This document shows, one piece after another, positions 6,585-38,843 of a stretch of 64,000 nt of DNA. Numbering within the stretch: position 1 is the first letter of the stretch; each line of letters begins with the position of its first letter. The position numbers were made by a program, and so were the translations under genes. The notes below the pieces were generated by a model. That model was not told the origin of the DNA. It ran no database searches and was given only the letters and a program-made list of their open reading frames with translations. Source of the DNA: Aurantiochytrium sp. KH105 (Eukaryota > Sar > Bigyra > Thraustochytrida > Thraustochytriidae); NCBI GenBank assembly GCA_003116975.1, contig BGKB01000093.1:124001-188000 (forward strand). The letters run 5' to 3'.

Positions 6585-8132
6585 TTATAATTTAGGTGTT
6601 CTCTTGAGAAATTTCTCGGCTTGGGTCTTGGACACGTCCGAGATTCGATCGCGCAGATTGTTGACCATCTTTTCGCCCTTCGCCAGCGCGTCAGGGATTA
6701 TGTCTTTCTCAATATGGTCCGCGGTGGTGGTCGCGCTCTTTTTGGCTGCATCGTAACTCTTCTTGCAATCCTCAATTGTACTTTGCAGCGCTCCCTCTGT
6801 TCGTACCGCAAGGCCCGACACATTTGCACTTTGGGCTTGCACCATTTCCGTGACAGGAATCGCTGCTGCCTGAGCCTTGGCGGCCGTCACGCCTGCGCTG
6901 ACGGCCTCTTGACTCTCTGCGCAGACACCTGTGATGATGTCTCTGGCCTGAGCAAGGTCCCCACTCGCAATCTTTTTCCCGACTAAAGCAGCTTGCTCGA
7001 TGACAGTCTCAGCCTTTCCCGCTACATCGCTCGTGCTTCCAATATTTTCAATGAGATCTCCGAGTTCTTTTGCGACAGCAGAACTTTTTGAGCTGCAAAT
7101 CGTTTGTGGAGTGAGCATAGCAACTTTGGCATCGACGCTGCGCAAAGCGCTATAGAACGCGCGCTGCGCGGGAGCCCCTAAGTCCTCTGCAATACGCTTT
7201 GACAATGTTTCCATTGCCTCTTGGCCATGAGACAAACTCGAGCTCAGCATGTCTCGCTTCGAAAGACCATGCTTGAGTTTATAAATTGCGGTCTTTCCTC
7301 GCTGTGCCGGCTCGGAGAAGGAGCCTTTGCACCAAACTACGTGCGTGCAGTCGTCTTGCACTGTCGCAACAAAGATGAGATCATGACAATGCACTGTGTC
7401 GAGACGAAGCACGCCATCGGCACCCTTTACAGAAAGGTCTACCTGAAAGCTCTCTGAGCAACGCTGTCCGGCACTTATCAAGAGCGAGCCATCGCAGGAG
7501 CCGAGACGTTCTTTCCAAAAGGGAATGAACTTTAGTGTGTCAGAACCTTTGTATGCTCGGCATGTCACGCAAGAGTCGTAAATGAGGACTTCGGCGCAAT
7601 TGCCTTCGGAGCCAAACATGCCATTGAGTGCAACGCCAGCTGCCACGTTGAATGCGACAGCTCCAGCAGCGACTGCAATGCCCGGAGGGCCGCTCCCGGC
7701 CGCAAACGCCAAGCCCATTTGCATTGCTAGGTCAGCAGCGAGAGCTGCTCGACTGGCCGTCACCTCATTTACGTCGAAAGCACCTTTCAAAGTTCCAGAA
7801 ACGACTGCTCCAATGAAGATATCAGCTAAGTTTGTACTTCCGAAATCGTTATACAGCGTCTGTAGAGTTTCCATGTTGCTCTGACCGTCGAGAAGCGCCT
7901 GGGTCACGGCGGTCGCACGAGCGCACGTCGCGGCTTCTTCCTCGGAGACGCTCCCGTCAACATGGCGATCGTACTTGAGGGCGTGTGCCTGCGCCCAAAC
8001 CCGGTCTCGCTCTACTTCATCGGGACAGAGCAGAACGTAAAAGGGGCGCTCTTGGATAGCTTCAGGCGTCAGATGCTGTGCGATCTCTACAAGAGCCTCA
8101 TCGCCATCGGCAATGGATGCGGACGCACCCAT
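6585..8132 (-). CDS. Unknown protein with N-myristoylation motif and central Gly/Ala-rich hydrophobic segment
   Basis: A 515-residue ORF starts at an ATG at 8132. The N-terminus MGASASIADGDE fits the MGxxxS consensus for N-myristoylation, so membrane attachment is plausible. Residues about 130-175 are rich in Ala, Gly and hydrophobic residues (MQMGLAFAAGSGPPGIAVAA), long enough for a hairpin membrane insertion. A Cys-containing beta-rich region follows (residues about 180-290). The C-terminal 220 residues are helical and Ala/Lys/Glu-rich, like an amphipathic apolipoprotein-type helix bundle. I recognise no named domain. The gene is intronless, convergent with the IQ-ankyrin gene and in tandem with delta-tubulin upstream of it. 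It may be a membrane- or lipid-surface-associated protein, but that is only inference. Confidence 0.7.
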   Translation of the reverse strand: MGASASIADGDEALVEIAQHLTPEAIQERPFYVLLCPDEVERDRVWAQAHALKYDRHVDGSVSEEEAATCARATAVTQALLDGQSNMETLQTLYNDFGSTNLADIFIGAVVSGTLKGAFDVNEVTASRAALAADLAMQMGLAFAAGSGPPGIAVAAGAVAFNVAAGVALNGMFGSEGNCAEVLIYDSCVTCRAYKGSDTLKFIPFWKERLGSCDGSLLISAGQRCSESFQVDLSVKGADGVLRLDTVHCHDLIFVATVQDDCTHVVWCKGSFSEPAQRGKTAIYKLKHGLSKRDMLSSSLSHGQEAMETLSKRIAEDLGAPAQRAFYSALRSVDAKVAMLTPQTICSSKSSAVAKELGDLIENIGSTSDVAGKAETVIEQAALVGKKIASGDLAQARDIITGVCAESQEAVSAGVTAAKAQAAAIPVTEMVQAQSANVSGLAVRTEGALQSTIEDCKKSYDAAKKSATTTADHIEKDIIPDALAKGEKMVNNLRDRISDVSKTQAEKFLKRTPKL

Positions 8133-10411: not shown

Positions 10412-13270
10412 TTACGGCTTGCTTTCGAGGTTGTCAAAATCTGGAAAATCGAGTCTCCTCTTGTCGCCGTCGTAGTCTTCTTCTTCTCCTTCTTCTTCGC
10501 CGCCATGTTCTTCTGAGTCGCTGTCCATGCCACGTCTCACCGACAATTGAGCGTCAGCATCGCGCGAAAAAGTAGCTTCTGGTGTTGGAGCAGCACTTGT
10601 CCCGATGACCGATGACGCCGACGAAGGAAGCCAAGTCGACATGGCCCGCATCAGGACCGTAGATAAGGTGTCGTCAATAACCTCGCTCATGCGCGAGCTA
10701 CGGCGTCGAGCTGCAGAAGCGTCTGTGCCCGCACGTAGAGACACCCGGCGCGGAGCCAAGGAGGCTCGGCGAGGACTCTCCGCGGTCGTAGGTTCCGTAT
10801 CCTGAAGCCGCTGCGCAGCGGCAAAATCTGTGGAGGCATTGGAAAAGTCGAGACCCGTGCGAACCCAGTGAGCACAAAAGTCATTGTACGACCAAACGTT
10901 AGAAGTATCCGGAAGGACATAGATTGGATCCGTAATAACGTCGCCAAGAAGGTTCGTTGCGCTCGTAATGGCCTGCGGGTCGACTTCGGACGCAAAACGG
11001 GGCAGCTCCAGATATGGCACGATCTTTTCGAGACGCCCCTGACGCTGCCACTCAGGCCACGCCGCGAGCCAAGCCTCGAACTTTTCCTCTGGGATTGCAA
11101 GCGCAGCCTTTTTGGCCTTGTCGATATCTGCGTCGCTCACTTGCACGTGGTTGGCATACAGCATTTCCTTGGAAGACACGGGAAGTCCTAGTGGTTCCCG
11201 CAAGGCGATTTCGAAACGCAGGTACACGCAAACGTCGTCTACAGCTCTGTTCAGCGAATTGATGTAGCTTTCCACGTGCTCATGCACAATATTGAGACGC
11301 ATGATGGACCGACCAAGCTCGCGAAGCTTTGCACGGTCCCCGCGGGCGTGAGAAATGGCAACGACCAGCTGCATCTGCCCAAGTGCCCAAATGGGCTTAT
11401 CCGCACAGGCGTCCGTGGCATCAAGCATACGGATGACGATTTCATCGCGGGAAATTGGGTCTGCGATGATGGTCTCCAGAATCTCCTTGACGCGCGCTTT
11501 GAGATCGTCCCGATAATCTTCATTCTTGAACTCGCTCGACGAGAGCAGCATGCCGAGGAATTTGAGCACGCCATACACGTATGCAGCATCAATGTACTTT
11601 TCAAGGTCGATGGCCTGAACGTCGAATTCGCGAGCGACGTCGTAGAGCGTGCTGAGCTCAATTGCGTTGGAGCCTTCTTCGCTGGCAAAATGGCCCACAA
11701 AGAAACGCACATTCGCGTTCTCGACGTTTTGCAGCTGCTCGAGCTCGTTGCCGACAATACTAGTGTCAGCCACGTTGACCATGAGGTAATTGCCACGAGG
11801 CTGCTGAAAAGGCTCGAGTGGAAGTGAAAAGAGCGCCGTGCAGCCAGAGAGATTGAATTCGAACCCCAAGCAGCGCAGTGAAGCAGGAACCGTCCGCAAT
11901 GACCTGCAATTTATTGCCAAAATGTTGCCGGTAACTGTAAGGTCCTCGGGGAGGGCCTCGAGTGCCGTGCAACCGTGGAGCACGAGATCGCCCTTGACGG
12001 TGAGCCCCTCTGGAAGACTTGTCAGAGAGATGCATTCGATGAGGACCAAGTTTCCTTCCACAAGACTCAGGCCAGGTGGCAGCGTCTCGAGCGCGTTGCA
12101 GCCGGACAGGTTGAGAGATTTGGTCGAGGTCCATGACGACGGGAGCCCTGCCAGAGCGCTGCACGTGGAGCAATTGAGGTTGCCTTCCACAATCATGTCA
12201 TCGGGGAGATGAAAAGGCTCTGTGTTCTCTAGGCGTAGTACGAGGTCCTTTTTGAAGCGCATTTTGCGGCCAAAGGAGGTCACCGTAAGCCGAGCAACGA
12301 GGGCATTGCCATCGACGCAGAGACCGTCGGGAAGCGCGAGGTCGTCCTCGGGAGTCGTCGAGCGCGGTTCGGGGATAATCACGAGGTCGTTCCGGACGTA
12401 AAGACCATCTTGAATCTCGCCTGGATCGAGTTCCGTAACCATAAGAAGAAGACTCGAATGTACGCGAAGAGGGGGCAAATTATCCAGAATTGCAAGTTTT
12501 ACGTAGCCTCTGCGCGGATGGGAAACGCTGATGGCATGGTGCCGCGGATCCCAGTGAATCACGGCCTTTGCGAGCTCTTCGCGCACTTGCGAGGTTTCGG
12601 AGAGCGGCGCGAGCGCCTCTCCTACTGAACCGTATTTGCTGCACGTGAGTGCCTCGAAGGCTTTTCGTCCTGTGTGCAAAGCAAGTCCGCTCGTGCCTTG
12701 GATGGCGCGCAAGACACCGAGACCAATGGGTGTTACGCAAAGGAGTGGGCAGATTGGAAGCGTCAAGAGGAGTGCAGTGGTCGAGGCCGCGCAGTCCGCC
12801 ATACCGGAGGAAAAGTGGATCTCCTGGCCGCTCCGGCAATGAATGGCGCAGGCTTCCTCGTCATCATCCGGAATGGAAGGGATGCAGAAAGGCGTTGTGA
12901 CAAGTGCAATCGGGGTCACAATCGCGCAGGCACCAAGGTAGATGAGACAATCCATGCTTCGGACCCAAACGGTGTCGAGTCGGCAGCTGAAGCGGTTATC
13001 GAGATTGTAGCACCAGACGGGAGTCAAACTCAGCGACACGGGCTCGTCTTCGTCTGTGGTGACATAGGGCTCCCACTTGCTGGGGTGGCAGCAGCAGCAG
13101 ACCTCCTCATCCGCTCCTTCTGGTGTTGGCGACGAGGCCGTCAGAAGTCGCCGCGTCTCCGTCGCAAACCCATCGCGTCTTCGGTCCGCGGCCATCCACG
13201 TCCCAGCAAACGGGTCACCCGCGGCGAGGGCGCGCGTCACCAGTTCGCGCAGCAGGTTGTCAAGGTCCAT
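10412..13270 (-). CDS. LRR plus NEL-like (IpaH-type) E3 ubiquitin ligase candidate, paralogue A, with hydrophobic N-terminal segments
   Basis: The ORF is intronless, 952 residues, with its ATG at 13270. Residues 57-61 are a Cys cluster (VCCCCH), and two hydrophobic stretches follow (about 108-132 and 161-190), suggesting membrane anchoring. Leucine-rich repeats with short spacing (EGLTVKGDLVLHGC, EDLTVTGNILAINC) run from about 355 to 505. A helical domain follows (about 510-745) whose landmarks match the bacterial effector NEL fold in order: DATDACADKPIW (candidate catalytic Cys622 in C-x-D), LRELGRSIMRL, DDVCVYLRF, LGLPVSSKEM, and FEAWLAAWPEWQ. In NEL ligases this Cys forms a thioester with ubiquitin; I infer the same here. 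Residues about 773-808 (ITDPIYVLPDTSNVWSYND) look U-box-like. The tail is Ser/Arg-rich, then acidic. A divergent paralogue lies 874 bp away on the plus strand. Activity is unproven. Confidence 0.8.
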   Translation of the reverse strand: MDLDNLLRELVTRALAAGDPFAGTWMAADRRRDGFATETRRLLTASSPTPEGADEEVCCCCHPSKWEPYVTTDEDEPVSLSLTPVWCYNLDNRFSCRLDTVWVRSMDCLIYLGACAIVTPIALVTTPFCIPSIPDDDEEACAIHCRSGQEIHFSSGMADCAASTTALLLTLPICPLLCVTPIGLGVLRAIQGTSGLALHTGRKAFEALTCSKYGSVGEALAPLSETSQVREELAKAVIHWDPRHHAISVSHPRRGYVKLAILDNLPPLRVHSSLLLMVTELDPGEIQDGLYVRNDLVIIPEPRSTTPEDDLALPDGLCVDGNALVARLTVTSFGRKMRFKKDLVLRLENTEPFHLPDDMIVEGNLNCSTCSALAGLPSSWTSTKSLNLSGCNALETLPPGLSLVEGNLVLIECISLTSLPEGLTVKGDLVLHGCTALEALPEDLTVTGNILAINCRSLRTVPASLRCLGFEFNLSGCTALFSLPLEPFQQPRGNYLMVNVADTSIVGNELEQLQNVENANVRFFVGHFASEEGSNAIELSTLYDVAREFDVQAIDLEKYIDAAYVYGVLKFLGMLLSSSEFKNEDYRDDLKARVKEILETIIADPISRDEIVIRMLDATDACADKPIWALGQMQLVVAISHARGDRAKLRELGRSIMRLNIVHEHVESYINSLNRAVDDVCVYLRFEIALREPLGLPVSSKEMLYANHVQVSDADIDKAKKAALAIPEEKFEAWLAAWPEWQRQGRLEKIVPYLELPRFASEVDPQAITSATNLLGDVITDPIYVLPDTSNVWSYNDFCAHWVRTGLDFSNASTDFAAAQRLQDTEPTTAESPRRASLAPRRVSLRAGTDASAARRRSSRMSEVIDDTLSTVLMRAMSTWLPSSASSVIGTSAAPTPEATFSRDADAQLSVRRGMDSDSEEHGGEEEGEEEDYDGDKRRLDFPDFDNLESKP

Positions 13271-14144
13271 CTTGCCTTCGCGACCTCACGCGAGCTCGCT
13301 TGCCCTCTTTCCTCCCCTCGCTTGCGACCGCGCGTGCGCACTACGCGCCGCTCCTGCCTCCCGCGCCCGGCCTCCGTCCCTCGCCTCGCCTCGCCTCGCC
13401 CGCCTGCGCGCAGCACAGACAGCAGCAGGCTGCGCGTTTGTCAGAGTCTGCGGCCTCGCCTCCCCGGCCGTTCTCCCCCGCTCGCCGCAGCAGCTCAGCC
13501 GCCCGTGCTGGCCGCTGAGGCCGCGCGCACACTCGGCCGCGCTCGCGTCGCAGGCCTGGCAGAGGTAACTGCTCAGAGAGGCAAGCGGCAAGCAAGCAAG
13601 CAAGCAAGCAAGCACGAAGCAGCGCGCGCGACACAAGCGAGAAGAGCAGAGCACGCCTGGAAGGGCGACACGAGCCAGCGGCGGCGGGCCCTGCCTGGGC
13701 ACCGGTGCCCAGGGCCGCAGGCCCCAGCTGCCACGGGCGGGCGGGCGGGAAGAGCGAGCGAGCGTGCGTGCGTGCGGGCGGGCCGGGGCCAGCGGGTACC
13801 GCCACGTGGCTGCGAGCTGCAGCTGCAGTGCTGCGAGCGAGTGCGAGCACGAGGGGGGAGAGAGCAAAACGAGGAGACGCAGCGGCACGTGCCGCACGCG
13901 CTGCGCGGCCCCACATTAAATGGTACATTAGTGGAGCCGCGTGCACGCGCGGACTCGCAGTGTATACACGAGCACTGCCGTAAAATGTGCTAGGTAGTGC
14001 TAGTAGCTGTGACTGCTGCTACTACGTGAGGTACTAGAAGACCTGGGCGGTATCGTGAGCGAGCATCCGCAAAGCTGGGCAGAGGCAATTGCTCGCTCGC
14101 GTTGTGCACGCGCGGATAGCGCGAGCGCGCGCGGCACGGGCGGG
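13271..14144. promoter_or_regulatory. Shared divergent 5' region of the two LRR-NEL genes
   Basis: About 870 bp separate the two start codons, so both promoters must lie here or in the genes. The stretch is very GC-rich. It contains a (CAAG) tetranucleotide run at 13589-13613 and a perfect 20-bp palindrome at 13694-13713 (cctgggcaccggtgcccagg). Long ORFs across it in several frames are Ala/Arg/Pro low-complexity and are rejected as genes. Promoter function is inferred from position only. Confidence 0.5.
13694..13713. repeat. Perfect 20-bp palindrome in the divergent NEL-gene promoter
   Basis: The sequence cctgggcacc followed by ggtgcccagg is an exact inverted repeat with no spacer. It sits roughly midway between the two divergent start codons, a placement that would suit a dimeric regulator acting on both genes. 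No known binding protein is assigned. Confidence 0.7.
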
Positions 14145-16658
14145 ATGGAGAGCGCAACGGCGGTGGCCGAGGTGACGGCGTCGACGTGGGTACGGCGGGA
14201 CTCGCGCATGGAGGCGGCGGTCGTGCGCGTGCTGGGGCTCGCGCGCGAGGCCGCGGGGCTGCCGGCGCTCGGGGTCGCAAACGGGGCTGCCGGCGAGGAC
14301 GGCGAGCGCGGCCGCACGCTGCGCGAGAGCGCAGGCGCGAGCGCGCGCGCCCTCAAGAGGGCCATGGCGTGTATCACCGCCCAGTCGACGGCAAGACCGA
14401 GCACCCGGAGGATGTCCATCGGCGCTGGGCCCGCGGGAAGGGCCATGGTCGCGCGCGAACTGCGCAAACTGCCGCCAGATTCGGTCCTCCGACGCAGCCT
14501 CGAGGCGAGCAATGTGACCCTGCATTGGCTTGCCAACAGAGGAACCCTGCGCGTGTCACTACCCTTTGAAGAAGTTCTCGTCGTCGACCTGGTGGAAAAC
14601 TTTCCGCGCATGATCGTGCGTGGCAATGCCTTGATTCTCGTGCCAGGCGCGCAGAGATCACGACGTACCAGCACGAGTCGCGCTGAGCCTTCGCCGCCAC
14701 CCAGGATACCTAGTGGGCTGTATGTCCATGGCAACCTCGTCATCATGACAGAAATTAGCCCCGAGGGCGAGTTTCTTGATCCTGTACCACTACAGGTCCC
14801 AGAGCGGCTTCACGTCGGCGGAAGCCTCATGCTGCTCAATATCGACGTCAAGGACTGGGGCGCGAATATTCGCATCGGAGGAGACCTCGCGGTCCGTGAG
14901 GGAGGACATCGGCTCACGGAGCTCCCGGAGTTTGCCGAGCTCGGCGGTGCACTGGACTGCAGGGGATGCAGACTGCTGGAGAAGCTCCCCTCCAATTTGG
15001 AGCACGTTGAGAGCCTTTATCTGGAGGATTGTTCGTCGCTCGAGAGCTTACCGGACTCGTTAGCACGTGTCGGTGGCGAACTTTGCTTGGCAGGGTGTTC
15101 CCGGTTGTCCAAATTGCCCGACTACCTTATTGTCGAAGGCAATCTTGACATGCGCAGCTGCACCTCGCTCACCACGCTCCCGAACTTGTTGACGGTACAT
15201 GGAAACACGTGGCTTCAAGATGCGTGGTCCTTGACAAAGATTCCCGTCACTGCAAATTTTCAAGGCTCCAAGCTCGATCTTCGTGGCTGCTCCTCGCTCC
15301 GCCGACTTCCCGTGGTCGCTCTCGAGAAACAGCGAAGGAAGACGCTCCATGTCGATGTGCGTGCGACAAACCTCGAGCCTGACTCATACGAGGTTCTTCA
15401 AAGCATCGAGACTGATGTGCTCAAGTTTTCTTTTGATGCGTCGGTACTGACGCTGCTCGAAAACAGTCGGAGGGCAAACACAACGGACTTTGAACCGCGG
15501 AGAAGCGCGACAGGGACATCGAGAAGTGCAAGTACGGGTTCAGTCACCGGCACTGCCTCTGGCAAGCTCATGGCGCAGTCGCAAGGGCACGAGGCAAGAC
15601 TTGGGGCGACAGCGATGCGTCCAAACTCAAAAACGTCCAAGAAAAATTCTGATCAAGCGGTGCCCAAACCGCGGCGAAAGACACAGTGTCTTCGCGAGGT
15701 GGGCGATTTGAACTCGATCAATACAATAGAGGACGCGTTGGCTCTCTTTGGCGCCGAGGACATTGAGCTTGCTCCGTTTGTCGAAAACGCGTACGTTCGC
15801 GACATTATTGAGTTCCTGAAACTCCTCGCCTCGAGCTTAGAAAATCGCGTCCCGGACCTTCGAGAGAGTCTCTTGGAACGACTGCGAGATGTGCTCGAGA
15901 CTGCAGCAACGGACGAGGTGGCGCGAGAAGAGATTCTCATGCGCATGGCCGACGCCGTGGACACATGTGTGGACAAACCCGTCTGGGCTCTTGGACAGAT
16001 GCAACTTGTGGCTGCGCTTGCTCACGCCAGAGGCGACCGCACGGCCCTGCGCAAGCTCGGGCTAGGTGTAATGCGACTTGGAGTCGTACATCAACATGCA
16101 AGTAATCTGCTCAATTTGAGCGACCTCGACGTCGATGACGTTTGTGTATATCTAAAATTTGAGCTCGAGCTGAGGGACGACCTTGGTCTTCCAGTGTCCC
16201 CTCGGGCTATGGAATGGGAGCAGTATGTCGACGTTACCCCCGAAGATATCGAGGCTGCCCGCGCGGAGGCCCTCGCAATCACCGATGCGGATCTGGACGT
16301 TTGGCTCTTGTCGTGGGCTCCGTGGCAGGAGCAGCTGCGCGGGGAGGCCGTTGTTGCGTACGAAGATCTCAAGGTGCCAGACCACAAATTGCGCATCGAA
16401 GCCGATGCGGCGACTGCCACCGATCTCTTGGGCGACGCAATTTCAGATCCTGTCGTCGTTCTCCCGGACGTAGCCAATATATGGTCGTATCAAGACGTTT
16501 GCGTGCATTGGGTCAGGACGGGCCTTGACTTTTCCAATAATCAGCTCTCGAGCGAGTCCTTTCTCACTAATGTATGCAGACTTTACAAAAATGGTATGCC
16601 CATCAACGCATCGGAACGTCGGAGCTCTACTCGGCGCTCCTTTTTCGGTCTTCGTTGA
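14145..16658 (+). CDS. LRR plus NEL-like (IpaH-type) E3 ubiquitin ligase candidate, paralogue B, soluble
   Basis: The protein has 837 residues from the ATG at 14145 (GGGATGG); the frame extends upstream only to a GTG at 14055. Short LRRs (GGSLMLLNID, PDSLARVGGELCLAGC, PDYLIVEGNLDMRSC) run from about 218 to 412. After a Ser/Lys-rich linker, the NEL-like domain (about 510-735) shows ADAVDTCVDKPVW with candidate catalytic Cys608, LRKLGLGVMRL, DDVCVYLKF, LGLPVSPRAM, and LDVWLLSWAPWQ. Cys and Asp of C-x-D, the VYL strand and the W-x-x-W pattern are shared with paralogue A and with bacterial NEL ligases. The U-box-like end (LLGDAISDPVVVLPD, then WSYQDVCVHWVRTGLDFSN) spans about 760-799. Unlike paralogue A it lacks the hydrophobic segments and the acidic tail, so the two may act at different sites. 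Origin by gene transfer from bacteria followed by duplication is an inference. Confidence 0.8.
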   Translation: MESATAVAEVTASTWVRRDSRMEAAVVRVLGLAREAAGLPALGVANGAAGEDGERGRTLRESAGASARALKRAMACITAQSTARPSTRRMSIGAGPAGRAMVARELRKLPPDSVLRRSLEASNVTLHWLANRGTLRVSLPFEEVLVVDLVENFPRMIVRGNALILVPGAQRSRRTSTSRAEPSPPPRIPSGLYVHGNLVIMTEISPEGEFLDPVPLQVPERLHVGGSLMLLNIDVKDWGANIRIGGDLAVREGGHRLTELPEFAELGGALDCRGCRLLEKLPSNLEHVESLYLEDCSSLESLPDSLARVGGELCLAGCSRLSKLPDYLIVEGNLDMRSCTSLTTLPNLLTVHGNTWLQDAWSLTKIPVTANFQGSKLDLRGCSSLRRLPVVALEKQRRKTLHVDVRATNLEPDSYEVLQSIETDVLKFSFDASVLTLLENSRRANTTDFEPRRSATGTSRSASTGSVTGTASGKLMAQSQGHEARLGATAMRPNSKTSKKNSDQAVPKPRRKTQCLREVGDLNSINTIEDALALFGAEDIELAPFVENAYVRDIIEFLKLLASSLENRVPDLRESLLERLRDVLETAATDEVAREEILMRMADAVDTCVDKPVWALGQMQLVAALAHARGDRTALRKLGLGVMRLGVVHQHASNLLNLSDLDVDDVCVYLKFELELRDDLGLPVSPRAMEWEQYVDVTPEDIEAARAEALAITDADLDVWLLSWAPWQEQLRGEAVVAYEDLKVPDHKLRIEADAATATDLLGDAISDPVVVLPDVANIWSYQDVCVHWVRTGLDFSNNQLSSESFLTNVCRLYKNGMPINASERRSSTRRSFFGLR

Positions 16659-21749: not shown

Positions 21750-22630
21750 GAGAGAAGGAGGCAAAGAGAGGGGCCGCACCTCTTCGAACAGCCGATACGA
21801 TGCGTAAGTTTGGGTGTCGCGATGGTAGGGTGTGGTTAGGCCTGATCTGGTATGGGATGGGATGGTACATGACAAATGGCATGGCATGACATGACATATC
21901 ATGGAAAAGTTTGCGGAATCATATGTGGGAAGGAATGCCCCTGTTTGCCCGATGTCATGAGATATATGTACATCAGCCCACGGCGATGGCAAGTCGACTG
22001 GCGGACCCTCCATGCCAGTTGGCGTCGCAAACCAGCGATCCGAGTCGTTGACCATGTTCAATGCAGCTTCGGTCAAGAGCTGGACTGGGCAAGATTGTCT
22101 GCGCGGCCGCCCTTGAGCGCACTGCGCACCCTGCGGCCGGCAAGGGCCCCTCAGGTTTCCTTTTGCTAGAGTTGGTCCCGCAAAGCAGAGAAGTGTAGGG
22201 CCCATACATACCACGCTTTGTGATCGTCGTTGACTAACACACACGTGACCGTCTTTTCTGGTTCAAACGATTCGTCAGCACAGATGGGGCCACGTCTATC
22301 TATGCCCATGCTCATGCCTATGCTCAGGCTCATACCCGTGGCACTCGACGCAATATCCCATCAAGCCAGTACTATTGTGTGGTTGTCTTGTACGGGCTTG
22401 GTACACACCGTTTTGGCGCTTTATCATTTTTTATTTTTTTCCCGATGAACGGATCATCTGGAGTGAATTTTAAGAGAGACAAGAGTCGCGCTGCGTACCT
22501 GAGGCGCGCGACGCGGCTGGGATTCTGATCTTGATCTTGTTCTTGCTCTTGCTCAAAGCCACGAGCTCCGGCCCGGCCTGGCCTGGCCCGGCCTGGGTTG
22601 GCTTGGCTTGACGCGGCACAACAAAAGAAC
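21750..22630. other. Intergenic region with ATGG/ATGC-rich simple sequence
   Basis: Between PEX12 and the next gene there is a degenerate GGTATGGGATGG / GCATGACATG stretch (about 21845-21905) and a ccatgctcatg-like repeat (about 22300-22335). Near 22500-22620 there is a gatcttgatcttgttcttgct run and a gcccggcctg repeat. No gene is supported. Confidence 0.5.
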
Positions 22631-24520
22631 ATGCCCAAGATGCAAGCACCGCGAGAAAAGCGACTCTCGCGCGCTGTACCGCCCAAGGGCTACACCAAGG
22701 CGGTCTTGGTGGACACGGCGGGCGTGCGAGATCCATATGCCGAGCTGCTCGTGCGCGATGAGAACGCCAAAGAGAAAGCACGGGGGCAAGAACATGCCGA
22801 TGCAGCCGTGACAGCCTTGGCCGCGGCCGAGGAAAACCTACACATGGTGAACTTGCGAACGACGAAAAAGTCGTACAGTGAGATCAACTTTGAGGCCTCA
22901 CTCATGCCCCGAGCCATCGACTATCTCATGGAGGAGCGAAAGCTCATTGCTTTGTCTCCGCAAAGCGTTGTTCCTGAAATGCTCACTCCTGAGAGAGATT
23001 TCGAGGATTGGGCGCTGACGAGACCAAATGTCCAGGTTGAAGCCTCGTACGGGCGTTTTACAGTCGTGCAACGTGGCAAGAAAGAAATTGAAGATGAAGA
23101 ACAGCATCGTAAACAAGCGCAAGGGTACTGGCGCCGATACCGCAAACGACCCGTGACTCCAGCCGAAAGTTTTCGCGTGGTTCGTCTCGAAGCGAACTCT
23201 CGACCCTTTCGACAAAGCTCGTGCCGACTACTGTACAAGCAGCGACGATTTGCCGAATTGGATCTCGAGCTTTTGAACCCGCTGCTTGCTGCTGCGTACA
23301 AGACGCGACCTGAAACACTGAACGGTATTGTCACAGAGAGACTGACGCCATTGTGCAGAGATCATTTGCCCAAGCTTTGGAAGCTCGTGGCCATGCGTCT
23401 TGCTTGCGTTCTAGCGCTTGGCGCGGTTCCCGCACTTCTCTATTTGATCCTAGGATGGACAATTGTCGACGTTGCGAGCGGGAGGCTCATTGACTTGGGC
23501 ATATGTGCTGGCCTGCTCGTATGGTTCACAGTGCCCATCCGCCGCTTTCGTCGCAAGAAGGCTGCTTACATACGGAAATGCTGGCAGCAGTTCCGCACGC
23601 GTCTCGATAGCGAATTGGCTTGCGTAAATGCAGAGCTTGAGGCGCTCGAGAGCCCGGACGCACCAGGAAGAATTCGCTTCGCCCCCGTTCTCGTGTGGCT
23701 CGGTCACGACCCGTACACCTCGGACCGCATGTCGCAAGTCGTCAAGGCCATCGCTGAAGCAGATCGTTTTCATCGCGCCCGGGCAATTTTAGCTGATCTC
23801 GAAGAGCGGGTGGCCAAGCTGGAGCGACAGCGCTACGAACTCGAAATGAATGGAGAAACAGCCAACACAGAGGTCATCGAGACCTTTGGTAGTGAGAAGC
23901 GGCTTCGTAAGCAGGTAAGCAAGCAGCGAAAGGCTCTTGCAAAGCTTTCGCGGCGCCGTCTGCTGCAAGGGCGCGAAGCAAAGGTTCCCAGCGGATCGTA
24001 CCTGGTTTTGCATCGTCTCACGATTGAGGTTGAGCTTCCAGGTCCGACCAATCCCGTGCTTGGTCTGCAGCCCGAGCCAGCCGCTATGCACGGCGAAAGA
24101 GCAGAGGACTCTGGCGGCGAAAGTGAGTCGGGACTCTTACGCCGCGTCGACACTGATCTTGTCGGCGCATGCTCACGCTGTCGACAAATTACTCTGTACA
24201 CGCGCAACGTGGGGCTCGAAAGCATCGCGAAAAACCTGTGCAAGAGTGCGCGCGAGGACGCCGTCGCCTTTGACGAGTACAGATTACGCAAGCTGCTCAA
24301 GCTCGAGCCAGGCACAGACCTCGCCAAAGCGCTTGGAGGGACCCACAGCGACGGCACCGATGATCAGGAGAAAAAAGAAGATCAAGACGAGAACAAGAAC
24401 AAGGACAAGGACCAGGACCAGGACCAAAACCACAAGCGCAACGAAACGGAGACGCTCGAAGACGAGGTTGCAGCGTCGGCATCGCGCTGCGCTGTGTGTC
24501 AGGGTCCCCGCGGCGCATAG
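22631..24520 (+). CDS. Unknown two-TM protein with coiled-coil and charged C-terminus
   Basis: The protein has 629 residues from the ATG at 22631 (GAACATGCC); a TTG lies 33 bases upstream in frame. The N-terminal half is basic and without recognised domain. Two hydrophobic helices occur at about residues 255-280 (LALGAVPALLYLILGWTIVD) and 285-305 (LIDLGICAGLLVWFTVPI), followed by basic RRFRRKKAAY. A long helical segment at about 375-455 is likely a coiled coil. Near the C-terminus a low-complexity stretch of Asp/Lys/Asn/Gln (DENKNKDKDQDQDQN) is followed by a final Cys pair (CAVCQG). Two other Cys pairs (CSRCRQ) occur at about residue 514, so a weak metal site is conceivable. I do not recognise a family. 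It lies just upstream of, and in the same direction as, the TRMO gene. Confidence 0.7.
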   Translation: MPKMQAPREKRLSRAVPPKGYTKAVLVDTAGVRDPYAELLVRDENAKEKARGQEHADAAVTALAAAEENLHMVNLRTTKKSYSEINFEASLMPRAIDYLMEERKLIALSPQSVVPEMLTPERDFEDWALTRPNVQVEASYGRFTVVQRGKKEIEDEEQHRKQAQGYWRRYRKRPVTPAESFRVVRLEANSRPFRQSSCRLLYKQRRFAELDLELLNPLLAAAYKTRPETLNGIVTERLTPLCRDHLPKLWKLVAMRLACVLALGAVPALLYLILGWTIVDVASGRLIDLGICAGLLVWFTVPIRRFRRKKAAYIRKCWQQFRTRLDSELACVNAELEALESPDAPGRIRFAPVLVWLGHDPYTSDRMSQVVKAIAEADRFHRARAILADLEERVAKLERQRYELEMNGETANTEVIETFGSEKRLRKQVSKQRKALAKLSRRRLLQGREAKVPSGSYLVLHRLTIEVELPGPTNPVLGLQPEPAAMHGERAEDSGGESESGLLRRVDTDLVGACSRCRQITLYTRNVGLESIAKNLCKSAREDAVAFDEYRLRKLLKLEPGTDLAKALGGTHSDGTDDQEKKEDQDENKNKDKDQDQDQNHKRNETETLEDEVAASASRCAVCQGPRGA

Positions 24521-36123: not shown

Positions 36124-36380
36124 ACTCGTGGCAAAGCTGCGCAGCAGCAACAGCGCGCAAAGTGAGCAAGACGTTGTCAAGGCATCCTGAGTTCGAGGCT
36201 CAACGCGGCGCCTCGTGATTGGCAAGCCTTGCCGGGCTGACGGCCCTGCGCACGGGCAGGCGCAAAGCCTGTCCCTAACGAGCACGGCCGGGCGCGCTTG
36301 CTAGTGTGCTCGAACTCCCGTCTTGCTCGCTGCGCAAGGCGAAACAGATACGGTCCGGCACCTTTGTCACGCAAATTGCC
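33813..36380. other. 2.5-kb gene-poor region with many simple repeats
   Basis: It contains a poly-C run (34014-34029), (TGCG)n runs near 34645-34690 and 34855-34880, (ATCA)n at 35287-35312, gcaggcaggcag near 35505-35530 and (AAGC)n at 36088-36124. ORFs over 34330-35080 on both strands are Arg/Ala/Cys low-complexity translations of these repeats, so I reject them. A weak tRNA-like box pair near 36129-36205 was also rejected. Confidence 0.55.
36081..36124. repeat. (GGCA)n/(AAGC)n tetranucleotide repeat
   Basis: The array begins as ggcaggca and passes into about nine units of AAGC. It is located 250 bp upstream of the polyQ-LRR gene. Confidence 0.85.
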
Positions 36381-36988
36381 ATGGACTGGAACGATCGGCA
36401 GCAGCAGCAGCAGCTCCTCAATGCGAACGGGGCTGCCATGCACCAGCTGAGGAGCGAGGCATCGACGTCGCAGCCATCTGTCACGGAAAGCTCGTATTCC
36501 TCCGTCTCGCCTCCAACCAGCTCCAGTAGTTCTCCTGTTCGACCGGAGCACTTCAGCCCCTCGAGCAATATGCAGCAGCACAACAACAATAACATGAACA
36601 ACACAAACGGCAATTCGGGCCTCTTTCCGCCCATGATGCAACCGCAGCAGCAAAACTTTGTATTTCCACAACAAATGATGATGCAGCAAAATCCTCCTCA
36701 GCAGCAGCAGCAGCAGCAAATGATACAGCAGGGTCCCGGAAACGGTATGTTCATGATGATGCCAGCGCCACAGCAGCAGCAGCAGCAGCAGCAAGTCCCT
36801 TTTTTTCAGCAACAGCAGCATCCTCAGCAACAACAGCAGCAGCAGCAACAGCAGCAGCAACCGATGTTCTGTGCGCCAGCAGGTCAAGGCGGTTTCATGA
36901 TGCAGCAACCTCAAGGCCAGTACGTCATGTTGCCGGATGGTCGGATGGTGATGCTGCAGCAAGGTGGGATGCAGTTCATGCCGCCGCA

Positions 36989-37047
<59 letters not shown>

Positions 37048-38843
37048 AGCAGCAGCAGCCAAACATGGTCCAGACAGGTAACAGCATCAAAGGGACTCCC
37101 AGCGAGGCAAAGAAGAAAGATTCTGACAACTTGTCTCACTCGAACTCCTTCCCATCGCAAGGTGGCTCGGCAGAACCAACGCCGAATGACTCTACTCGTC
37201 AAAATGATGGCCGACCAACGGCGAGCGGAGATGATCAAACAGGTGACCCAAGAGCAAACCACAACACCGCACCAAGCGACGCTGGAGCATCACGCCAGCA
37301 AGAGCACCAACAACAGCAACACCAACAACAGCAACACCAACAACAGCAACACCAACAACAGCAACAGATACCACAGATGATGTCTGCACCAGGACAAATG
37401 TTCATGATGAATGGCGGTCAGATGGCAGGCATGCAGCCTCCACCGGGCATGATGATATTTAACCAGCAGGGCATGCCGATGCAAGCCATGCATCCCATGC
37501 AAATGCACCCCATGAACTTTCAAACAAACCAGAATAACCCAAACGGCATGCCCTTGATGGCAGCCCAAGGGATCCAGATGGGCCCAATGATGCAAGATCA
37601 TAGACAGGAACCCATGCGCAAGCGACGTCGGCGCAGAGGGCCGGCCGTCACATCTCTGCGTGCACTCATTCGACCGCGCAAGGCGAATAACCTCGTGCTG
37701 GACTTTGCAGGCCCCTTTCGCACTTCCAAACTGAACGAGGCCATCGAGCTGGTTCGCATAGTTCCCGGTGCTCAATTTGCGTCACACTTTCTCGTATCCG
37801 ACGCCTCGCTAGTCACGAACGTTAAATTCGGAGGTCTTGGGCTCTTACGAGGAAGCTGCTTTGCAGACATTTTCAGGGTGATCAATCGCACAAAAATTCG
37901 CAAGCTTGACCTGGACGACACGCAGACGATTGAACTTTCTGCGCTGGCATCCATCCCGGAAAATGCACGCAAGGGGAACACAATCGGAGCCGAGGCCCTC
38001 GGCCAGCTGTGGAGTGCGCTCAGATCCAGCGCATGCCCCTTGGAGGAGCTCAACGCTGGCGGAACTGACGCCGGTGCCAATGGTGGCTACCGTTCGTTGG
38101 GCGCTGCACTCACCCTCAATACTTCTCTGCACACACTAAACCTCGACGATACTTCGGATGAGAACACGACCGCGCAGGATTGCCGTGAGCTGGCCAACGC
38201 ACTGCGCACAAACTCGAGCTTGAAACACTTTCTGTTTGGAGGCAACCGAGTAGGCTCTGCAGGGTGCTCTGCTTTTGCGGAAGCGATTCAGTTCAACACC
38301 TCCCTTTCGACGCTCAATCTCGAGGCCAATGGAATCGGCGAAGAGGGCTGTGCTGCTCTCAGCGACATGCTTCGCTTCAATTCTGCGCTCCGAAAGCTAA
38401 ACTTGGCACGCAACACGCTCATCGGAGATGCGGGCTGCCGACTTCTGGCGGGAGCAATGAGCGCCAACGAAACCCTCGAGGAGCTCGATCTTGAGCAAAC
38501 GAACGCAGGAGCCAGCACTGGAGCTGGTATTCACGCGTTGTCGACCGCGTTGCGGTCCAACACGACCCTCAAGACGCTCAATCTCGCGGAGAACGACTTG
38601 GGGGCAAGTTCAGTGATCCACCTTTCGAAGCTGCTCTCATTAAACTCATCGATTACGACCCTGGTGCTTGCGCGGAATCGCATCGGGATCAAGGCCATTC
38701 GTCAGCTTGTGCTGGGTTTGAGCACCAACACCACGCTGAAACGTCTGGATCTCGTCGGCAACCCGCTCACGCCAGAGTGTCACCAAGAGCTAGAGGCTAT
38801 GAGTCGTACTCACCCCGAGCTGGCCCAAGGAATTATTCTCTAA
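36381..38843 (+). CDS. PolyQ/Met-rich protein with C-terminal ribonuclease-inhibitor-type LRRs
   Basis: The protein has 820 residues from the ATG at 36381 (GCCATGG). Residues about 8-410 are a low-complexity region rich in Gln, Met, Asn and Pro with many pure Gln tracts, the longest at about 202-226. A 15-bp tandem repeat encodes four HQQQQ units (37305-37364). A basic patch (MRKRRRRRGPAV) near residue 412 could be a nuclear-localisation signal. From about residue 535 to 800 there are at least eight 28-residue LRRs of the RI/NLR type (NTSLSTLNLEANGIGEEGC, NTTLKTLNLAENDLGASS, TTLKRLDLVGNPLTPEC). The Q/M/N-rich part resembles transcription co-activator or P-body prion-like regions; the LRRs suggest protein binding. 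No NACHT or other catalytic domain is present. Confidence 0.8.
36985..37058 (+). repeat. CAG/CAA (polyGln) repeat inside the coding region
   Basis: A mixed CAG/CAA array encoding about 25 consecutive Gln. The mixed codons are usual for tolerated coding polyQ tracts. Confidence 0.9.
37305..37364 (+). repeat. 15-bp coding tandem repeat (four HQQQQ units)
   Basis: The unit caccaacaacagcaa is repeated four times without change, implying recent expansion. Confidence 0.9.

Follow-up and report, generated by a model that had tools for sequence, protein, structure and literature searches.

The closest described systems are the IpaH, SspH and SlrP type III secreted effectors of Proteobacteria, in which leucine-rich repeats (LRRs) precede a NEL domain (Pfam PF14496) with a helical catalytic fold, a C-x-D loop and a [VI]D[DE]V-x-VYL motif. 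The bacterial NEL consists of a catalytic subdomain and a C-terminal thumb binding E2-ubiquitin, and in SspH1 this thumb is built from a pair of long antiparallel helices with an additional small helical segment (PMC12506513). PMC9320238 describes NELs as confined to Gram-negative bacteria. Here we report on two genes, A and B, in a 64,000-nucleotide stretch (hereafter the window) of the thraustochytrid Aurantiochytrium sp. KH105 (assembly GCA_003116975.1, contig BGKB01000093.1, positions 124,001 to 188,000), whose products share all these catalytic and LRR features. They differ from the bacterial proteins in being encoded by a eukaryote, and hence in not being type III secreted bacterial effectors, in belonging to a family of about 16 genes, in a U-box-like C-terminus whose model has no long-helix thumb, and in the SPRY, SAM or hydrophobic N-terminal parts of some members. 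A and B probably belong to a set of about 16 E3 ubiquitin ligases native to this thraustochytrid, a judgement that we hold jointly for the whole mechanism proposed below. The features of the locus, in window coordinates, are as follows.

10412..13270, minus strand: gene A, 952-residue LRR-NEL-(U-box-like) protein, single open frame (Pfam NEL 3.6e-30)
14145..16658, plus strand: gene B, 837-residue LRR-NEL-(U-box-like) protein, open reading frame (ORF) from the ATG at 14145
13271..14144, no strand: divergent upstream region shared by A and B, 874 bp, from the start codon coordinates
12893..12949, minus strand: A residues 108-126, hydrophobic segment (19 residues, Kyte-Doolittle mean 2.02)
12719..12775, minus strand: A residues 166-184, hydrophobic segment (19 residues, Kyte-Doolittle mean 2.11)
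11771..12208, minus strand: A residues ~355-500, leucine-rich repeats (NCBIfam SlrP model; approximate limits)
11042..11569, minus strand: A residues 568-743, NEL domain (Pfam PF14496 score 105.5 bits, cut-off 24)
11399..11407, minus strand: A Cys622-x-Asp624, the C-x-D (both residues conserved in every one of 37 aligned NELs)
10802..10984, minus strand: A residues 763-823, C-terminal U-box-like module (by alignment with the B module)
14700..15317, plus strand: B residues ~186-391, leucine-rich repeats (like the LRR parts of 8z5u, 7crb and 4fcg; approximate)
15792..16343, plus strand: B NEL domain (Pfam NEL 6e-24, score 85.1 bits, cut-off 24)
15966..15974, plus strand: B Cys608-x-Asp610, the C-x-D (on the loop that separates model helices 94-110 and 115-131)
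16410..16589, plus strand: B residues 756-815, U-box-like module at the site of the bacterial thumb (beta-beta-alpha model; hhalign P 2.2e-4)

NEL domain and catalytic residues

The NEL matches of A and B are not due to chance, given their Pfam scores of 3.6e-30 (105.5 bits) and 6e-24 (85.1 bits). An initial annotation, made from the letters of the DNA, had read both proteins as LRRs followed by a NEL-type domain and had proposed a profile search, which thus bears it out. The N-terminal LRRs are indicated by the SlrP model from residue 355 onward in A and by solved LRR proteins in B, while no Pfam LRR model exceeded its cut-off in either protein. The NCBIfam SlrP model covers A residues 355-752 at 5e-16, under its own curated cut-off; the NCBIfam SlrP, IpaH, SspH2 and XopL models match both A and B (XopAE matches B too), all far under their curated cut-offs. 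The ordered landmarks pointed out in the initial annotation are present in both translations, namely LGRSIMRL in A and LGLGVMRL in B, DDVCVYL, LGLPVS, and WLAAWPEW in A and WLLSWAPW in B, and the C-x-D lies at Cys622 and Cys608 as claimed. The numbering of Cys608 is counted from the ATG at 14145; the ORF of B is also open from a GTG at 14055 (14055-16658), in which case the product would have 867 residues.

The C-x-D of B was aligned with those of SspH1 and SlrP, and in profile comparison the C-x-D of the family was aligned with that of the IpaH structures (best 6e-28), the matched region ending ahead of the C-terminal tail. C111 and D113 (B-core numbering) do not vary across the 16 genes of the genome, and the C-x-D is present in 37/37 rows of a mixed alignment and in 29/29 database relatives. 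The Asp of the VDDV motif, the second active-site Asp, is found in 36 of the 37 rows; in our own mapping it would correspond to Asp397 of IpaH9.8, a residue named in PMC9320238. The mixed alignment comprises neither second haplotypes nor the relatives P0001, P0004 and P0006 (same genes) and P0011 (a fragment), and the later family-profile and tail comparisons were also made without P0015, P0019, P0021 and P0024 (copies from the thraustochytrid Hondaea fermentalgiana). Predicted structure and structure comparison agree on the NEL catalytic fold, and the model of B places the catalytic-type Cys in a loop flanked by helices 94-110 and 115-131, an outcome in line with the structural check suggested for these proteins. 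A and B are thus candidate ligases with conserved catalytic residues, for which ubiquitin transfer via a Cys thioester is predicted. In L020 (2683-4392), the shortest paralog, CGDMIVW replaces C-x-DKPIW, and the relative P0007 carries CGDKIAW.

Selection was estimated between the members of 16 gene pairs described below. Pooled omega was lowest for NEL (0.082), followed by the tail (0.105), the N-terminal part (0.167) and the region after the tail (0.388). NEL and tail are under purifying selection, the strictest among the parts compared, and this supports the proposal that the genes have been domesticated.

The U-box-like C-terminal module

The tail of the B model is a beta-beta-alpha arrangement, with block pLDDT of 84-93 at model residues 261-310. 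DSSP assignment of this single model gives strands at 272-275 and 278-284 and short helices, and not the two long helices of the bacterial thumb. The U-box likeness of the tail was seen prior to any structure model, and the predicted structure appears to be a U-box fold without zinc ligands. In the structure comparison, the 16 rows covering the tail alone were U-box proteins or spliceosome chains. The tail motif is approximately LxGxxxxDPVxL....WSLxDLLxHWVxTGxDLxN, and when the tail of one paralog served as a genome query, all 28 matches fell inside NEL genes (14 of the 16). With the U-box E3s (Prp19, Ufd2, Ube4B and the plant PUBs) the tail shares a beta-beta-alpha fold lacking the conserved set of zinc ligands, the DPV and a helix with a Trp; it differs in having no CPI start, one additional residue ahead of the helix Trp, an Asn at the position of the second-loop Pro (the register being our own reading) and in its fusion to a catalytic Cys domain.

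Profile comparison by hhalign of the tail with three U-boxes from the same genome gave a local P of 0.0033, and none of 300 shuffles scored as high. These three (L041, L043 and L047) came from six loci tried, L039, L045 and L049 not being recovered by the pattern, and 11 pattern hits were listed. When three plant U-boxes were added, P was 2.2e-4 (Prob 45%), again with no shuffle among 300 reaching the score (best 19.5 versus 23.9). Searches of Pfam and of PDB sequences gave no U-box: none of the 16 tails exceeded the cut-off of the Pfam U-box model (PF04564), and the best match to PDB sequences had an E of 0.19. Two Pfam families at E 0.14 and 0.17 were judged to be chance matches, as was a UBM motif of Pol iota (E 0.33), which was dropped.

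Several results limit the support for the U-box assignment. In global mode the comparison with the three own U-boxes gave a P of only 0.068. Slices of NEL itself scored up to 18.2, so the support from hhalign is moderate. Furthermore, four bacterial rows of the structure comparison extend into the tail, mostly at high root-mean-square deviation, and TRPV rows share their Z with the U-box rows. The TRPV rows were treated as helical noise and not as real relatives of the tail; the bacterial rows and the shared Z, however, lower our confidence slightly. It is still, under the joint judgement given above, likely that the tail is a U-box-like module at the thumb position, to which E2 would bind.

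Host genome and gene family

A and B lie head to head, with start codons at 13270 (minus) and 14145 (plus), as had been noted. GenBank proteins of Hondaea include P0004, 99.8% identical to A over residues 1-910, and P0001, 99.6% identical to B over residues 1-779 with the same start Met. These identities and the neighbouring genes confirm that the host is eukaryotic. The housekeeping neighbours of the initial annotation were also recovered, as a tubulin GTPase domain and, 3' of B, an LSm1-like first exon. Ten other window ORFs were compared with Pfam; besides the tubulin domain, the matches were to an ankyrin/IQ protein, an aminotransferase, DnaJ, a PPIP5K-like protein, a TPP enzyme, an EF-hand protein and an LRR protein. 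Pfam gave nothing for the two ORFs at 6588-8132 and 22598-24517. Apart from A and B, an LRR protein at window positions 36306-38840 (LRR_6, 1.9e-13) has no NEL match. The GenBank models P0001 and P0004 fuse the NEL genes to neighbours and bear the neighbours' names, LSm1 and tubulin; further members of the family bear the names Importin subunit alpha, TAO1 and RPP5. The 'Disease resistance protein TAO1/RPP5' names probably reflect LRR likeness only.

Our search of the genome (76.0 Mb, 367 contigs) revealed 32 NEL matches, all above the cut-off and without internal stops, while 14 control genomes gave none. By best blastp partner the 32 loci form 16 pairs, 95.3-99.3% identical and on different contigs, which we interpret as 16 genes on two haplotypes. 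Neither the size of this family nor the U-box-like module was recognised in the initial annotation. The N-terminal parts vary: L010 and L023 have SPRY, L019 has SAM, LRR models match weakly or moderately in several members, and A carries two hydrophobic segments. For L010, L015, L019, L023, L024, L029 and L030 the open frame reaches the edge of the locus sequence analysed, and their N-termini may be incomplete. L019 has 2144 residues as cut, inside an open frame of 3546 codons, and SAM is also present in P0005. The two hydrophobic segments of A are possible membrane helices. One or two such N-terminal segments occur in each of A, L012 and P0003, and this branch may be membrane-bound.

Relatives and tree

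Three protein searches (5, 6 and 19 rows, P0005 appearing twice) yielded at least 29 relatives (P0001-P0029), a lower bound since two of the searches scored the 8000 candidates with the largest number of shared words. Seven of the 29 are named Hondaea, the majority of the remainder have a source label of jgi or lgn, and P0010 and P0029 bear MMETSP names, which we take to refer to a eukaryote transcriptome project. P0014, named 'SspH1' and located on a 5.9-kb contig, has a NEL region 55% identical to that of P0005 and the eukaryotic-type C-terminal motif.

Among bacterial and archaeal genomes, in a search limited by two peptide patterns, 85 stretches fitted and 14 encode relatives, all from Pseudomonas. 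These proteins (L050-L063, frames of 1562-1707 residues) share the C-x-D and the conserved NEL core at 28-31% identity, whereas their C-terminal segment lacks the DPV...WSLxDLLxHWVxTG motif. Within the phylum of the Pseudomonas relatives, NEL was found in 9 of 398 genomes, counting the centre genome G001. A viral route was also considered and rejected, with 7 pattern matches in viral contigs and no relatives.

A tree was built from the 16 genes of the genome (the Hondaea rows), 7 other eukaryotic-type sequences and 14 Pseudomonas sequences; it is unrooted, has Pseudomonas as its sole bacteria, and its bootstrap is not settled. A branch with support of 100/100 parts Pseudomonas from the rest. 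Environmental rows are interleaved with the Hondaea paralogs, pointing to an origin of the paralogs before the species splits involved. A joins L012, on another contig, and P0003 first, and B and P0002 after these. The description of A and B as a duplicated pair therefore needs correction: a simple local duplication is not supported, A being nearer to L012, and the genome carries 32 loci in 16 pairs. Gene transfer from bacteria to a eukaryote is plausible; because bacterial NELs are patchy and only one bacterial genus enters the unrooted tree, the reverse direction is compatible with the data as well.

Proposed mechanism and alternatives

RBR ligases carry an E2-docking module and a catalytic Cys on one chain. 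The mechanism that we propose is analogous to theirs in logic only, with NEL in the role of RING2. The variable N-terminal part (LRR, with SPRY or SAM in some paralogs, and in A including the two candidate membrane helices) would select the substrate, and the C-terminal U-box-like module of the same chain would dock E2-ubiquitin. Ubiquitin would then be handed to the NEL cysteine (Cys622 in A, Cys608 in B), assisted by the Asp of the C-x-D, and passed by this cysteine to the substrate. We consider this LRR-NEL-U-box mechanism as a whole to be likely; E2 docking, thioester chemistry, LRR substrate choice and an immune or quality-control role are those of its elements that we infer. A constant catalytic end combined with receptor ends that vary would fit a surveillance role, as would the TAO1/RPP5 database names if they meant more than LRR likeness.

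A eukaryotic NEL with E2 bound elsewhere, the C-terminal module being a U-box-shaped binding domain or a remodelled thumb, is in our view rather unlikely, as the module occupies the position of the E2-ubiquitin-binding thumb, its constraint nearly equals that of the catalytic part, and the 16 structure rows confined to it come from U-box proteins or spliceosome chains. It is also improbable that the NEL folds are catalytically dead and retained as LRR scaffolds. Activity is so far a prediction and L020 lacks the K-P after the C-x-D, but C and D are invariant in all 16 genes, the VDDV-motif Asp persists in nearly every row, and NEL is more constrained than the remaining parts.

That the proteins are effectors secreted by the protist and directed at other cells draws on analogy with bacterial use only, and appears very improbable, B having no strongly hydrophobic 19-residue stretch in a hydropathy scan (no signal-peptide predictor was run). 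Contamination of the assembly by a bacterium or symbiont might be suspected from the reported restriction of NELs to Gram-negative bacteria; it is made extremely improbable by the eukaryotic neighbour genes, the 16 pairs on different contigs, the separate eukaryotic clade in the tree and the presence of the same genes among the GenBank proteins of Hondaea. The LRR-NEL-U-box ligase remains the reading that we favour.

Relation to earlier reports and implications

Neither this NEL family nor the exchange of the thumb for a U-box was found described among the open-access papers listed, as judged mainly by titles and abstract openings, subscription papers lying outside this coverage. The NEL label on Hondaea is already public, P0006 being named a NEL domain-containing protein in UniRef. 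In passages of one paper naming Hondaea (PMC12221091), neither a NEL nor an E3 ligase was found. PF14496 also appears in a search list from work on Giardia. A 'bacteria-like' NEL domain has been named in algal NLRs; in the passages of that report, the label derives from the resemblance of an ODAL/LRR superfamily hit to NEL, and no C-x-D catalytic domain is described (PMC7145615).

If our reading is true, a native E3 class would be added to eukaryotes, the family would offer a natural experiment on a NEL core whose E2 adaptor has been changed, and hypotheses on where the bacterial effectors came from would become testable. A tentative and in our view doubtful extension is that NEL is not bacteria-only but a native eukaryotic E3 class of RBR-like layout, from which the injected bacterial effectors may descend by replacement of the U-box with a helical thumb.
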